A stretch of 64,000 bases of DNA from Planctomycetota bacterium. Lineage in GTDB: Bacteria > Planctomycetota > Phycisphaerae > Phycisphaerales > UBA1924. Location of the stretch: assembly GCA_033763975.1 (NCBI GenBank), contig JANRJM010000002.1:186001-250000 (forward strand). Reading direction: 5' to 3'. The position numbers and the translations under genes are program-made. Below the pieces are notes generated by a model, which was not told where the DNA came from, did not search any database, and saw only the letters and a list, made by a program, of their open reading frames with translations. Positions 8,026-62,106 of the stretch are shown here, piece after piece. Position 1 is the stretch's first letter. Each line of letters opens with the position of its first letter.

Positions 8026-8147
8026 CCCCCGATCGACGGCCGGGCCCGGTGCACGGGTTTGGGCGTGAACCTGGTCAGGGCTTGACCGCAGCAGCCATAA
8101 GCGTTCCGGGCCCGGTGCCGCCGGTGTCCTGGCCGTCGATCGGGGGG
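8026..8147 (+). ncRNA. ffs: signal recognition particle (4.5S) RNA
   Basis: The stretch folds into one long hairpin: 8026-8041 is the perfect 16-bp complement of 8131-8146. Near the tip lies the conserved SRP domain IV core, GUGAACCUGGUCAGG at 8065-8079 facing GCAGCAGCC at 8088-8096 and AUAAGCGUUC at 8097-8106, i.e. the Ffh-binding symmetric and asymmetric loops. The length of about 120 nt fits the small bacterial type. The apical segment between the two core strands reads GCUUGACC rather than the usual GGAA-type tetraloop stem. A T-rich run (TTCTTTTCTCC, 8150-8160) follows. Ends are estimated from the pairing. Confidence 0.85.
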
Positions 8148-9391: not shown

Positions 9392-11431
9392 ATGCATCGT
9401 GCGTACGCGGTGGGGCTGGCGGCGGTGGTCGGGCTGGCGGCCATGGTGGGTGTCGTGCAGGGGGGCCAGCCGGCGGGGGGCGGCGCGCCCGCGCGGGGGG
9501 CTCCCGGGACGAGCGCCCCATCGATCGAGCAGTTCCTGAAGATCCGGGCGCCCGGGGCGCCGACGCTGATGCCCGACGGGTCGCTGCTGCTGCGCGACTG
9601 GCCCGACGGGGTGTGGCAGTTGTACCGCGTGACGCCCGCGCAGGGGAAGGGCAAGGCCGACGCCGCCCCGTCGTACAAGCCGGGCGAGGCGACGTTCGAA
9701 CGCCTGACGAACTACACGGACGGGCTGGGCGGGTTCTCGGTGTCGCCGGACTCGCGCCACGTGATCCTGATGCACGCCGTGGGCGGGAACGAGAACACGC
9801 AGCTCACGCACATGGACCCGGCGACGGGCAAGACCCGGCCGATCCTCGCCGACCCCAAGGTGCAGGCGTCGATCAACGCGTGGCTGCACGACAGCAGCGG
9901 GTTCATCTACTCGGCGAACCAGGACAGCCCGACGGACTTCCACCTGTACCGCCACGACTTCGCGAGCGGGAAGACGACGCGGATCCTGAGCGAGACCGGG
10001 TCGTGGAGCGCCGACGACGTCACGCGGGACGGCGGGCGCGTGCTGGTGGGCAAGTACACGTCGATCTCCGACAGCCAGGTGTTCGAGCTCGACGTCGCGA
10101 GCGGGCAGCGCCGCGAGATCACCATCCGCCCGGAGGGCGGCGGCACGGCGTCGTGCACCGTCGCCGGCTACACGCCCGACGAGAAGGGCGTGTTCCTCGT
10201 CTCGGACGCGAACGAGCAGGGAATCCGGCGCCTGTACCTGCGCGACCTGGCGAGCGGCGCGGTGAGCGAGCCCCTGCCCTCGCTGAGCGCGGTGGAAGTC
10301 GACGGCGCGGGCGTCGACCACGAGCGCGAGTTCCTCGTCGTCAACACGAACGAGAACGGGTTCGGCGTCGTGCACGTCTACTCGCTGCCGGACCTCCGCG
10401 AGATGCCCGCCCCCACCGCCGAGCAGGGCGTCGTCGGCTCGGCGGGCCTGCGCAACCGCACGCTCGTGTGGACCATGAACAACGCGCGCACGCCCTCGGC
10501 GGCGTTCGCGACGACCTATCCCAAGCCCGGCGCGCAGCTCGGGGCGCCGCTCACGCGGCAACTGACCTACCCCGACACGCAGGGGATCAACCTCGGCTCG
10601 TTCCCGCTGCCCGAGCTCATCACGTACGCCAGCTTCGACGGGACGCCGATCCCCGCGTTCCTCTACCTGCCCCCGGGCTACGCGAAGGGCACGCGGATCC
10701 CGTTCCTCGTGCACTACCACGGCGGGCCCGAGGGCCAGCACCGCCCGACCTTCGCCGCCCCGATCCAGTACCTCGTGTCCAAGGGCTACGGCGTGCTGCT
10801 GCCGAACGTGCGCGGGAGCGTCGGCTACGGGCGCGCGTTCCACATGATGGACGACTACAAGAACCGCTGGGACAGCGTGCGCGACGGCGTGGAGGCCGCG
10901 GAGTGGCTCGACAAGGAGGGCTACAGCGCGCCGGGCAAGATGGCGACCTGGGGCGGGTCGTACGGCGGGTACATGTCCGTCGCGTGCCTCGTGCAGGACC
11001 AGAAGCACGTCGACGGCAACGACCGCACGCAGCGCCTCTTCGGCGCGGGCGTCAACATCGTTGGCATCGTCAACCTCAAGACCTTCCTCGAGAAGACCGC
11101 CGGGTACCGGCGCAAGCTGCGCGAGGTGGAGTACGGCCCGCTGAGCGACCCGGAGTTCCTCGCCGAGGTATCGCCCTCGTCGTACTACGACAAGCTCAAC
11201 GTGCCGATCTTCATCGCGCACGGGTTCAACGACCCGCGCGTGCCCGTCGAAGAGGCCATGCAGCTCAGCGTCGCCATGAAGGACAAGGCGTTCGCCACGA
11301 AGAACATGGACATCATGCCGCGGGTGTTCATCGCGCCCGATGAGGGGCACGGCTTCGCCAAGCTCGACAACCGCGTGTACTTCTACGAGCGGATGGTGCA
11401 GTTCCTGAACGACACCATCGGAAAGAAGTGA
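9392..11431 (+). CDS. secreted S9 family serine peptidase (prolyl oligopeptidase type)
   Basis: 679 aa. A signal peptide (to about residue 28) is followed by a beta-propeller-like domain with repeated WD/TolB-type strands, then an alpha/beta-hydrolase domain from about residue 410. The catalytic triad is complete: Ser523 in GGSYGGYMS, Asp614 in HGFNDPRVP, His653 in DEGHGFAK. The oxyanion region HGGPEG precedes it. It cleaves peptides outside the cytoplasm. The gene stands alone, followed by a purine-rich repeat spacer and the convergent pyrE. A second S9 peptidase lies at 31.8 kb. Confidence 0.93.
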   Translation: MHRAYAVGLAAVVGLAAMVGVVQGGQPAGGGAPARGAPGTSAPSIEQFLKIRAPGAPTLMPDGSLLLRDWPDGVWQLYRVTPAQGKGKADAAPSYKPGEATFERLTNYTDGLGGFSVSPDSRHVILMHAVGGNENTQLTHMDPATGKTRPILADPKVQASINAWLHDSSGFIYSANQDSPTDFHLYRHDFASGKTTRILSETGSWSADDVTRDGGRVLVGKYTSISDSQVFELDVASGQRREITIRPEGGGTASCTVAGYTPDEKGVFLVSDANEQGIRRLYLRDLASGAVSEPLPSLSAVEVDGAGVDHEREFLVVNTNENGFGVVHVYSLPDLREMPAPTAEQGVVGSAGLRNRTLVWTMNNARTPSAAFATTYPKPGAQLGAPLTRQLTYPDTQGINLGSFPLPELITYASFDGTPIPAFLYLPPGYAKGTRIPFLVHYHGGPEGQHRPTFAAPIQYLVSKGYGVLLPNVRGSVGYGRAFHMMDDYKNRWDSVRDGVEAAEWLDKEGYSAPGKMATWGGSYGGYMSVACLVQDQKHVDGNDRTQRLFGAGVNIVGIVNLKTFLEKTAGYRRKLREVEYGPLSDPEFLAEVSPSSYYDKLNVPIFIAHGFNDPRVPVEEAMQLSVAMKDKAFATKNMDIMPRVFIAPDEGHGFAKLDNRVYFYERMVQFLNDTIGKK

Positions 11432-11537
11432 GCGGAAGGAAGAAGCGAGAGAGCGAGAGAGCGAGACAGCGAGACAGCCAGAGGGCAACGCAGGAAAGGC
11501 GAGCAACGCAGGGGAGAAGCAGCCGCGCGAGCGGGTG
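11432..11537. repeat. purine-rich low-complexity spacer between convergent genes
   Basis: The gap between the convergent S9 peptidase and pyrE genes holds tandem degenerate copies of GCGAGAGA / GCGAGACA (11446-11477), then GGCAACGCAGGAAAGGCGA and AGCAACGCAGGG. A near-identical run, GCGAGAGAGCGAGAGAG, recurs at 56873-56889. No ORF or hairpin terminator is evident. Confidence 0.6.
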
Positions 11538-39398: not shown

Positions 39399-40115
39399 GT
39401 GCCTGACGACACCCGCACTCACCGCGCACCTCCCCCACGCCCGTTCGTGCTGGGCATCTCGGGGGCGTCGGGGGCCGTCTACTCCCTCCGCCTGCTCGAC
39501 CTCCTCCTGCGCAACGGGCACGACGTGCACCTCGTCGTCTCCGACTACGGGCGGCGACTGCTCTTCGACGAGGCGGGCATCAAGAACCTCACGCCGGAAG
39601 AACTGCTCGGCGGCCGGGCAACCGCGCAGGGGTCATCCTCTGATCTTCGGAACTCCGGAACTCCGGAACTTCCCTCACTTCGGAACTCCGGAACTTCGGA
39701 ACTTCCCTCCGGAACACTCTTCATCCACCCCAACAAGGACGTGGGCGCGCTCATCGCCAGCGGGTCGTTCCTCCACGGCGGGATGGTCATCCTCCCGTGC
39801 AGTTCCGCCACGCTCGGCGCGGTCGCGACCGGCTCGGGCTCGAACCTCCTCTGCCGGGCCGCGGCCGTCACGCTGAAGGAACGCCGCCCGCTGATCGTCT
39901 GCCACCGCGAGATGCCGCTGAGCCTCATCGACATCCGCAACATGGAATCCCTCGCGCTCGCCGGCGCCACCATCTGCTCACCCAACCCCGGGTTCTACCT
40001 CCACCCCACGCGCATCGAGGACATCGTCGACTTCGTCGTCGGCAAGGTCCTCGACCACCTCGGCGTCTCCCACGCGCTCAAGACCCGCTGGGAAGACCAC
40101 ACGCGCCGCGACTGA
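39399..40115 (+). CDS. ubiX: UbiX family flavin prenyltransferase, with repeat-derived insertion
   Basis: 238 aa versus ~190-200 usual. UbiX makes prenyl-FMN, the cofactor of UbiD decarboxylases. Family motifs are FVLGISGASGAVYSLRLLDLL, VVSDYGRRLLF, IASGSFLHGGMVILPCSSATLGAVATGSGSNLLCRAAAVTLKERRPLIVCHREMPLSLI and the C-terminal NPGFYLHPTRIEDIVDFVVGKVLDHLG. Between residues ~73 and ~106 lies an extra segment with two LRNSGT(P/S)ELPS copies, encoded by 8-bp CTYCGGAA DNA repeats (39645-39714). The reading frame is intact. The start is GTG. Confidence 0.9.
   Translation: MPDDTRTHRAPPPRPFVLGISGASGAVYSLRLLDLLLRNGHDVHLVVSDYGRRLLFDEAGIKNLTPEELLGGRATAQGSSSDLRNSGTPELPSLRNSGTSELPSGTLFIHPNKDVGALIASGSFLHGGMVILPCSSATLGAVATGSGSNLLCRAAAVTLKERRPLIVCHREMPLSLIDIRNMESLALAGATICSPNPGFYLHPTRIEDIVDFVVGKVLDHLGVSHALKTRWEDHTRRD
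39645..39714 (+). repeat. 8-bp CTYCGGAA tandem repeat block inside ubiX
   Basis: Units are CTTCGGAA (39645), CTCCGGAA (39653, 39661), CTTCCCTCA (39669), CTTCGGAA (39678), CTCCGGAA (39686), CTTCGGAA (39694) and a final CTTCCCTCCGGAA (39702-39714). Three units (24 bp) encode eight residues, so the block stays in frame. The same unit occurs in the opposite orientation at 62047-62106. Confidence 0.9.
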
Positions 40116-40204: not shown

Positions 40205-41119
40205 CTACGGCAGGTTGGGCGGGTCGATGTCCGTGCCCGTGCCGCCGAAGAGGTCGTTGCGCGGGTCGGGGCCGTCGCCCGGCCCGCCGTCGGTGCGCGG
40301 GCCCGTGGCGGTGCGCGCTAGGCGGCCGTCGCCGAGCACGCGATAGCCCAGGTCGGTGAGCCCCAGCACGCCCGAGTGCCCGTCGGCGAACATGGCGGCC
40401 GCCTTCTTCGACGAGTGGCGCGCGTCCATCCCGTTGCGGTACGGCGCGGTGCCCAGGTCCGAGGTCGGCGTGAGGCGGGGCGGGTCGATCGTGTACCCCT
40501 CGTTGCCCAGGGCCGCCTCGGTGCGCCCGTCGTTCTCGTACGGGCGGCGTTGCTCGGGCGGGAAATCCGCCGACGACCCCGACGCATCGCCCGCCACCAC
40601 CGTGCGCGAGGTCTGGAGAATCGCCGACATCCGCACGGGATATTTGTGCCACACCCCGCCCGTCTGGCGGCTGTTGCCCAGGAACTGGTAGTTGTACCCG
40701 TACGTGCTGTTGCGCTCGTCGACGCGCTCGGGCGCCTCGGGGCAGACGTACACGCGGCTGTCGAAGTCCTGGCGATCAAAGTCCGTGCGGGGTTCGGCGA
40801 AGGCGTAGATGCCCACGTACCCGCCGATGCGCGCGATCCACGTCGGGCGGAACTTCAGCCCGTTGCCCACCTCGTGCCAGTTGTCGGGGCTCGACGTGCC
40901 CCCGGGCAGCCCGGGCGCGCGGTGCGCCACCAGCACCTCGCGGTGCGCGTCGGCGTACATCGTCCAGCCGGCGACCAGGTTCTTCATGTTCGACATGCAG
41001 CGGGTCGACCGCTCGGCACGCCGCGCCGACCCGAGCGAGGGCAGCAGAATGCCGATGAGCAGCGCGATGATCGCGATGACGACGAGCAGCTCGATGAGCG
41101 TGAACGCGCGACGGGCCAT
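40205..41119 (-). CDS. DUF1559-like prepilin-type N-terminal methylation protein
   Basis: 304 aa. The type IV pilin-like N terminus is MARRAFTLIELLVVIAIIALLIGILLPSL, with prepilin peptidase cleavage expected after the A/F boundary and Glu at +5. The rest resembles planctomycete pseudopilin-like proteins: MSNMKNLVAGWTMYADAHRE, YVCPEAPERVDERNSTYGYNYQFLG, VVAGDASGSSADF and the MDARHSSKKAAAMFADGHSGVLGL segment typical of this family. It is secreted or assembled by a type II-like system. TACGCT lies 9 nt before the ATG. Confidence 0.9.
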   Translation of the reverse strand: MARRAFTLIELLVVIAIIALLIGILLPSLGSARRAERSTRCMSNMKNLVAGWTMYADAHREVLVAHRAPGLPGGTSSPDNWHEVGNGLKFRPTWIARIGGYVGIYAFAEPRTDFDRQDFDSRVYVCPEAPERVDERNSTYGYNYQFLGNSRQTGGVWHKYPVRMSAILQTSRTVVAGDASGSSADFPPEQRRPYENDGRTEAALGNEGYTIDPPRLTPTSDLGTAPYRNGMDARHSSKKAAAMFADGHSGVLGLTDLGYRVLGDGRLARTATGPRTDGGPGDGPDPRNDLFGGTGTDIDPPNLP

Positions 41120-41234
41120 GGCGCCGCCAGCGTACCGCCGCCGCCGACGTGCAACGGGCCTCCCGACCCCGCGCGCGCCCGACTTTCGCGCAACCTGAAC
41201 CCGACCGCCTCGTTCCGGCAAGGCGACCGCCGGC

Positions 41235-44511: not shown

Positions 44512-44619
44512 CGTGTCGGGGCTCGGGCACCCGTCCGACCCCGCGCGCCGGGCCGTGGTTCACCCGGATACCAGGTCACGCGGCCATCAGGTCACGCGGT
44601 CACCGGCTCACGCGGCGGC

Positions 44620-60411: not shown

Positions 60412-62046
60412 GTGACCAGGCCCGGGCGCCAATCGAACAAGCGGGGAACGCCGCTTCCGGGGGAAGAGATGGTCAAAGGCGTCGCGTCGTCGGCCCAGCC
60501 GCCGGTCCACCCCGCGCCGGGCGCAGACCTCCACCCGACCGACCAGGGACGGAACGGGAACCACCCCGACGACAAGCCCGCGCGAGGCAAGGGGCGCGAG
60601 CCCGCGTCCGACAAGGGCGTCAAGACGTTCGTGCTCGACACGAACATCCTGCTGCACAACCCCGACGCGCTGTTCGTCTTTCAGGACAACCACGTCGTCA
60701 TCCCGTTCAAGGTCATCGAAGAACTCGACAAGCTCAAGAAGAAGGACGACGACCTGGGACGCAACGCCCGGGCGTGCATCCGCCACCTCGACCGCCTGCG
60801 CGCCATCGGGCGGCTGAGCGAGGGCGTGCAGTGGGACCGGCTGCCCACGCTGCCCAACGCGGCACGCTCGCCCGGCGTCAACGGACGCACGGGCACCATC
60901 CGCATCGAGGTCACCGACTTCGCCCGCCCCGCGGCGATCATCGAGGACCAGCCCGACAACCACATCATCGCCGTCGCCTACCACCTGAAGGAAAAGGGCG
61001 TCCGCACGGTCTTCGTCACCAAGGACCTCTCGGCGCGCATCAAGAGCGACGCCCTGGGCATCAAGACCGAGGACTTCGAGAACCAGAAGGTCGACGCCGA
61101 ACGCCTCTACTCCGGGTTCACGACCCTCCGCGTCGAGGGCGCGCTCATCGACGAGCTCTACCGCGACCGCATGCTGCCCATGGAGCGCCTCCGAGGCACG
61201 ACCGAGCTGCGCGGCGGGCCCGACGCGATGCCCCACGATGAGCCCTTCGACGCGGCACTCATCCCCAACGAGTTCGTCGTGCTCTGCGACCAGGACGACG
61301 AGAACCACACGGGCCTCGCCCGGCGCCTGGGCGACACCGAGCACCTCATCCCCGTCACCGGGCCCCGCAAGCCGGTCTACGGCATCATGGCCCGCAACGT
61401 GCAGCAGACCATGGCGATGGACGTGCTCCTCGACGAGGACATCAAGCTCGTCACGCTCCTGGGCAGCGCGGGCACCGGCAAGACCCTCCTCGCCCTCGCC
61501 GCCGGCATGAGCAAGGTCTTCGGCGAAGAACGCTACGACAAGCTGCTCGTCGCGCGCCCCATCATGCCCCTGGGGCGCGACATCGGCTACCTCCCCGGCG
61601 ACAAGGACGAGAAGCTCACCGCCTGGATGCAGCCCATCTTCGACAACCTCGGCTACCTGCTCGGCACCCGCGGCGCCCACATGCAGGGCCCCGAGAGCCA
61701 GAGCAGCGAGCAGCGCATCGGCAAACTCATGGCCGACGGCAAGCTCGTGCTCGAGCCCCTCACGTACATCCGCGGACGCAGCATCCCCCGCCAGTTCATG
61801 ATCGTCGACGAGGCGCAGAACCTCACGCCCCACGAGATCAAGACCATCGCCAGCCGCGTCGGCGAGGGCACCAAGCTCATCCTCACCGGCGACATCGGGC
61901 AGATCGACAACCCCTACCTCGACCAGTCAAGCAACGGCCTGGCGTACACCATCGAGAAAATGAAGGGCGTCCGCCTCTACGCACACGTCACGCTCGCCCG
62001 GAGCGAACGCAGCGAACTCGCCAGCCTGGCGGCGTCGAGGTTGTAA
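60412..62046 (+). CDS. PhoH family protein with N-terminal PIN domain
   Basis: 544 aa. After a disordered N terminus (1-70) comes a PIN domain (KTFVLDTNILLHNPDALFVFQDNHVVIPFKVIEELDKLKK; VFVTKDLSARIKSDALGI) and then the PhoH ATPase: Walker A GSAGTGKTLLALAAGM, ARPIMPLGRDIGYLPGDKDEKL, IRGRSIPRQFMIVDEAQNLTPHEIKTIASRVGEGTKLILTGDIGQID. PIN-PhoH proteins (PhoH2/YlaK type) are RNA helicase/RNases. The start is GTG 60412, with ATG 60469 as an alternative. The stop is followed at once by the 8-bp repeat block. Confidence 0.93.
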   Translation: MTRPGRQSNKRGTPLPGEEMVKGVASSAQPPVHPAPGADLHPTDQGRNGNHPDDKPARGKGREPASDKGVKTFVLDTNILLHNPDALFVFQDNHVVIPFKVIEELDKLKKKDDDLGRNARACIRHLDRLRAIGRLSEGVQWDRLPTLPNAARSPGVNGRTGTIRIEVTDFARPAAIIEDQPDNHIIAVAYHLKEKGVRTVFVTKDLSARIKSDALGIKTEDFENQKVDAERLYSGFTTLRVEGALIDELYRDRMLPMERLRGTTELRGGPDAMPHDEPFDAALIPNEFVVLCDQDDENHTGLARRLGDTEHLIPVTGPRKPVYGIMARNVQQTMAMDVLLDEDIKLVTLLGSAGTGKTLLALAAGMSKVFGEERYDKLLVARPIMPLGRDIGYLPGDKDEKLTAWMQPIFDNLGYLLGTRGAHMQGPESQSSEQRIGKLMADGKLVLEPLTYIRGRSIPRQFMIVDEAQNLTPHEIKTIASRVGEGTKLILTGDIGQIDNPYLDQSSNGLAYTIEKMKGVRLYAHVTLARSERSELASLAASRL

Positions 62047-62106
62047 GAAGTTCCGGAGTTCCGAAGTTCCGAAGTTCCGGAGTTCCGGAGTACGGAAGTT
62101 CCGAGA
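62047..62106. repeat. 8-bp TTCCGRAG repeat block after phoH
   Basis: Starting 1 nt after the phoH stop, seven units of 8 bp: TTCCGGAG, TTCCGAAG, TTCCGAAG, TTCCGGAG, TTCCGGAG, TACGGAAG, TTCCGAGA (62051-62106). This is the reverse complement of the CTYCGGAA block inside ubiX (39645-39714). Each unit contains the palindromic core TTCCGGAA across the unit border. It lies between convergent genes and could form local hairpins. Confidence 0.9.

Follow-up and report, generated by a model that had tools for sequence, protein, structure and literature searches.

Tandem repeats with units of 6-9 bp have been little studied in bacteria, where they are usually taken as regulatory. The REP/BIME elements, which are associated with a RAYT transposase, are palindromes of 20-40 bp with a GTAG/CGTC tag, and the cyanobacterial STRR repeats are of the same type as the heptamers of Xanthomonas and Nostoc. 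These G-rich heptamers (GGGAATC in Xanthomonas, GGGGAYT in Nostoc) occupy the antisense strand when they precede a start and the sense strand when they follow a stop, a geometry that was tied by the authors to G-quadruplex regulation (PMC4692102). In Geobacter metallireducens, both inverted pairs of the octanucleotide GTTGCTYN and elements of the heptanucleotide GGGACCG have been described (PMC2700814). Marine Beggiatoaceae possess direct repeats of TAACTGA, one array of which occupies a region of variable sequence in a relative of RNA polymerase beta' (PMC4679880), and the palindromic elements of Rickettsia comprise families of ~150 bp that code for a conserved peptide (PMC10969869). A literature search of incomplete coverage returned no planctomycete report of such repeats.

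The stretch analyzed here (the window) comprises 64,000 nucleotides, C2:186001-250000 of G000, a 3.27-Mb Phycisphaerales MAG in 19 contigs. The window contains 12 copies of the octamer CTYCGGAA, all of them in two clusters: seven forward-strand units inside ubiX and five reverse-strand units at 62051-62090 (table 1); the shuffled sequences contained 3.75 on average, and none of the 100 shuffles reached 12. This agrees with the original prediction that CTYCGGAA units fill a segment of ubiX in frame and recur, inverted, right after the phoH stop codon (62044-62046): the second array, which reads TTCCGRAG on the phoH sense strand, begins one base past that stop. UbiX matches its profile with 157.8 bits (cut-off 108.9), and the matches of phoH to NF053827 and NF007827 are below their cut-offs. 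A third array, formed by another octamer, begins directly 3' of a stop codon ending at 11431, and TRF detected an array of periods 16 and 8 (TCACGCGGACACCAGG) at 44560-44615, possibly a further word of the same kind. Elsewhere in the window, the gene adjoining ubiX (40205-41221, reverse strand) carries a prepilin-type N-terminal sequence (FTLIELLVVIAIIALLIGILLPSL), and a bacterial small SRP RNA at 8038-8137 (+) is the sole Rfam match at the gathering threshold.

Table 1. Repeat arrays and their host or bordering genes, in positions of the window.
Feature	Position	Strand	Basis
ubiX (flavin prenyltransferase), host of the insert	39399..40115	+	Open frame; TIGR00421 above cut-off
CTYCGGAA array, 7 units, in frame, right-arm orientation	39645..39714	+	Repeat counts and TRF
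33-bp (11-codon) in-frame tandem duplication, copy 1	39645..39677	+	TRF; 31/33 identical to copy 2
33-bp duplication, copy 2	39678..39710	+	TRF; 31/33 identical to copy 1
phoH, stop codon bordering the second array	60469..62046	+	Gene call
CTYCGGAA array, 5 exact units plus variants	62047..62104	-	TRF, word counts, gene call
Array of another octamer (AGCGAGAG/AGCGAGAC), purine-rich left-arm orientation	11432..11493	+	TRF, gene call

The ubiX array codes for LRNSGTPELPS and LRNSGTSELPS followed by G, and TRF resolves it at period 33 (2 copies, 96%) as well as at period 8 (7.5 copies). The 33-bp duplication, itself composed of octamers, attests local growth within ubiX, as expected of the expanding unit that had been proposed. 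Its two copies amount to 22 residues rather than to the roughly 33 initially credited to them, and the loop that holds them is 40 residues long in comparison with a median of ~19 (range 10-41) in 42 homologues and, by a count on the sequence, with 22 in G003, the nearest genus-mate, which leaves a net excess of ~18 residues (54 bp). Neither this excess nor the 33-bp duplication fits the suggestion that coding sequence tolerates the repeat because three units equal 24 bp. The search of genome contigs gave 36 related loci for ubiX, and solved UbiX structures align on either side of the insert. The CTYCGGAA array was not found in the ubiX loop of the genus-mates, and the loops at the same position in these and in other family members are variable in length and unrelated in sequence. 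The AlphaFold2 model has a confident fold (pLDDT 85.8), in which residues 74-92, between a helix and a strand, fall below 50. The variable, unrelated loops of the homologues and the low pLDDT of this segment show that, within the sampled species, the insert is peculiar to this one and occupies a tolerant loop, where it would be translated as a disordered linker; an insertion of equal length and sequence in distant orthologues, which would have counted against the original prediction, was not seen. As its trinucleotides imply, CTYCGGAA is free of stops in all six frames, so that in-frame copies would be readily translated, and the frame of ubiX was presumably kept because disrupting changes would be lost.

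Beyond the window, the 15-mer CGGAACTYCGGAAST produced 26 matches with up to one mismatch at about nine loci of the G000 genome, against 0 for the reversed pattern, and was present in 6 of 150 family genomes, including G000, G001 and G004 of the genus; the idea of a dispersing unit was upheld for the genome itself. Copies of the CTYCGGAA type lie in frame within ubiX, purL, lipA and dus of G000, another lengthens a nitroreductase-like gene at its C-terminal end, and intergenic arrays occur as well. In G004, CTYCGGAA is found in lipA and dus exactly where G000 has it, in addition to three positions in carB. Among the host enzymes, LipA (TIGR00510, lipoyl synthase) and ValS (NF004349, valine-tRNA ligase) scored above the respective cut-offs, and the matches of PurL (TIGR01736) and DusB (TIGR00737) were strong, yet below theirs. 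The concept of one 8-bp family is incomplete: CTYCGGAA is one of several 7-/8-bp words sharing this behavior, and other core enzymes have been entered too.

What these words have in common is their period. We surveyed sampled genome stretches (650 kb in the case of G000) and observed lag-8 self-similarity in 3.5-5 segments per 100 kb in G000, G001, G004 and G011, the signal recurring at lags 16 and 24; the stretches of G001 and G004 were partly picked because they held hits, so their densities are biased. Lags 5, 11 and 13 were near zero, and lags 5, 7, 11 and 13 gave 0-0.3 segments per 100 kb in G000; the sampled stretches of the genus-mates G002, G005 and G006 contained no lag-8 segment. Further words of G000 are AGCGAGAC, CCACTCTG, CACCCATT, CTTCACCT and CTGCGGCC, and the lexicon depends on the species, the commonest word being CTTCGTCT in G001 and CTTCGTCA in G017. 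A single word consequently understates the spread of the arrays, as illustrated by CACTYYGY, which was found in only 6 of 392 phylum genomes. In the 650 kb of G000, 22 of 25 arrays lay outside called genes, which cover ~86% of the sequence according to a home-made caller trained on known genes; G029 was left out, and G017, whose gene model covers only about half of its sequence, was used with caution. One candidate insert (L123:10596) was dropped as GC-rich low complexity. In G000, a strong Y1_Tnp (RAYT) gene (C1:51868-52200) has a period-8 array, L241:11391-11502, at a distance of ~370 bp.

The comparison of CarB, PurL, LipA and Dus orthologues across the genus revealed that the same loops have been entered by different words. 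Loop 2 of CarB carries CTYCGGAA in G004, RAGTGGCR...YGCCACTY in G001 and a GTGGTC variant of the latter in G003, with no array in G000, G002 and G005, and loop 1 exhibits the period-7 words GGCATTC in G001 and AAATCTS in G006, as well as CTYCGGAA in G004. PurL has units of the CTCCGGAA type in G000 and AGTGGCRG in G001 and G003; LipA has AGTGGTCA plus CGGAACTT in G000 and CTYCGGAA in G004; and the Dus insert occurs at the same place in G000 and G004. Two-arm inserts were also observed in frame within valS of G000 and dnaE of G017, and a CACTCTGC array lies ahead of a DnaE-type catalytic region in G396, a genome from a different family of planctomycetes. Beside its two-arm insert, the G017 DnaE (L174:12520-16929, reverse strand) contains the additional, apparently repeat-like segments VTKLRSDEVK and NAESQMPNADV.

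The arrays follow a consistent strand geometry. On the right flank, 27 of 28 arrays were pyrimidine-rich on the forward strand, and on the left flank 11 of 17 were purine-rich; neighboring arrays formed 11 purine-pyrimidine pairs and no pair in the opposite order. Array-free sequence beside genes has an average purine content of 0.50, and this geometry is therefore not a property of the background. The two-arm inserts within genes, read by eye, keep the purine-then-pyrimidine order. Strong hairpins are found in the carB inserts of G001 and G003 (z about -8 for both) and in the dnaE insert of G017, and the ubiX array has a single orientation. Within a genome, words are shared more between the two arms of a locus than between arms taken from separate loci (0.28 vs 0.16; p = 0.001 in a within-genome permutation to which coding pairs delimited by hand were added), and some paired arms carry unrelated words. 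In G001, a period-7 hairpin of GGCACTA/TAGTGCC (L136:17478-17580) occupies the entire gap between two divergent genes.

Measured against the described systems, these arrays resemble the Xanthomonas and Nostoc heptamers in being short, degenerate, dispersed tandem arrays, mostly intergenic and near gene ends, and the strand rule of those G-rich repeats applies here in an equivalent form to purine-rich strands. They differ in the unit of 8 (sometimes 7) bp, in the several words per genome, in their recurrent in-frame entry into conserved enzymes and in their purine-pyrimidine hairpins. Instead of four or more 7-nt units with GGG tracts, period 8 dominates and CTYCGGAA lacks GGG, for which reason no G-quadruplex is expected from the ubiX word. 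With Geobacter metallireducens they share the arrangement of tandem octanucleotides as inverted pairs, and the heptanucleotides of that species are located between and within genes; the words are different, and have been interpreted in that species as RNA elements or as sites bound by a regulator (PMC2700814). The Beggiatoaceae repeats are likewise tandem 7-mers at gene ends with a few inside genes; they consist, unlike those described here, of one word with stops in one orientation, and are not reported to form two-arm hairpins in conserved enzymes (PMC4679880). In-frame insertion into many unrelated genes is a property of the Rickettsia elements, which are palindromic and tolerated by the protein (PMC10969869), and it extends here to ubiX, purL, lipA, dus, carB, valS and dnaE. 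Instead of a full-length element, though, the present copies share only 7-/8-bp words that vary by locus and species, being short-word arrays of which many are one-armed, and no consensus palindrome was found among them. Short tandem repeats themselves are known; what is new here is that they have repeatedly entered core enzymes in frame, with a geometry equal to that outside genes.

The ubiX insert probably belongs to a set of short tandem-repeat elements that is specific to the lineage. Each of these would be an array built from a 7- or 8-bp word, in many cases with a purine-rich left arm and an inverted, pyrimidine-rich right arm that may fold together as a long hairpin. We favor, with some reserve, a neutral or selfish process of slippage and hairpin copying that is tolerated in unconstrained DNA and in loops. 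Slippage during replication or repair would enlarge the arrays, template switching at hairpins would supply the inverted arms, and ectopic copying by host enzymes would carry them between loci. They would build up where selection spares them, mainly in intergenic DNA at gene ends and sometimes in conserved enzymes, in loops from which all versions except those in frame and free of stops would be purged; no host function would be required. Slippage alone does not explain why a word is common to unrelated loci, nor the purine-then-pyrimidine arms. Both the modest adherence to the left-flank rule and the unrelated words in some paired arms count against this explanation.

Its main rival is directional end growth during repair. 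Break repair would here extend 3' ends with purine-rich 7-/8-bp repeats and then join them, which we consider unlikely overall even though it predicts the purine-then-pyrimidine order, single arms, arms with unrelated words and an equal geometry at gene edges and inside genes, and needs no telomerase-like enzyme if a repair polymerase slips. Much like the formation of interstitial telomeric repeats in eukaryotes, such growth would leave purines in the left array and pyrimidines in the right one. It does not account for the sharing of words between the arms of a locus above chance, and its candidate enzymes are distributed unfavorably. Among the genus members, a Ku gene was found only in G000 (C18:317592-318137) and G006; as none was detected in the array-rich G001 and G004, we rejected Ku as a common cause. 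No RVT_1 match was obtained in any of the 7 genus genomes, with absences from the incomplete assemblies of G001 and G003 being weak, and a reverse transcriptase was rejected as the array source; a shared origin in Ku end joining or in an RVT_1 enzyme accordingly appears unlikely. A more general version is a speculative proposal to which we assign little probability: 7-/8-bp tandem arrays of unrelated bacteria (these planctomycetes, Xanthomonas, Nostoc and perhaps Beggiatoaceae) would all stem from one directional process, in which purine-rich strands extend outward from the flank, both at gene edges and within genes, as though 3' ends were lengthened prior to joining.

Less probable still is a palindromic mobile element, comparable with the Rickettsia elements or REP/RAYT, moved by a trans-acting transposase and decayed into repeat arms. 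The inverted arms, the hairpins and the many unrelated genes entered in frame would suit it, and Y1_Tnp genes are present in G000, G001 and G004 and were not found in the clean G002; they also occur, however, in G005 and G006, where the sampled stretches contained no array of period 8, and of the two strong Y1_Tnp genes of G000 only one has an array ~370 bp away, with none within 5 kb of the other. The genes do not track the arrays cleanly, their linkage is not convincing, and only tandem words varying by locus and species are seen in place of a full-length consensus. Functional signals, namely terminators or sites of a global regulator, with the in-gene copies as side effects, would match the location of most arrays directly 3' of stop codons, the folding of several into hairpins and the analogy with the inverted octanucleotide pairs read as regulator sites in Geobacter metallireducens (PMC2700814), but appear improbable given that the words vary between loci and species, that samples of three genus-mates held no period-8 array and that the geometry is equal inside enzymes, away from any gene end.

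On the favored reading of a neutral or selfish repeat process, the arrays in UbiX, PurL, LipA and ValS mean that repeat DNA can rebuild protein loops in bacteria. In several species, enzymes that are universally conserved hold equal array types with equal strand geometry, placed in the same loops but made of different words, and the occurrence of clean and array-rich species within one genus offers a natural comparison. Whether the geometry is mutational or regulatory, and how far repeat invasion has provided new protein loops, become testable questions. If the common directional process were true, a geometry hitherto interpreted as gene regulation would be the trace of repair or replication, through a mechanism that also provides bacteria with new protein linkers.
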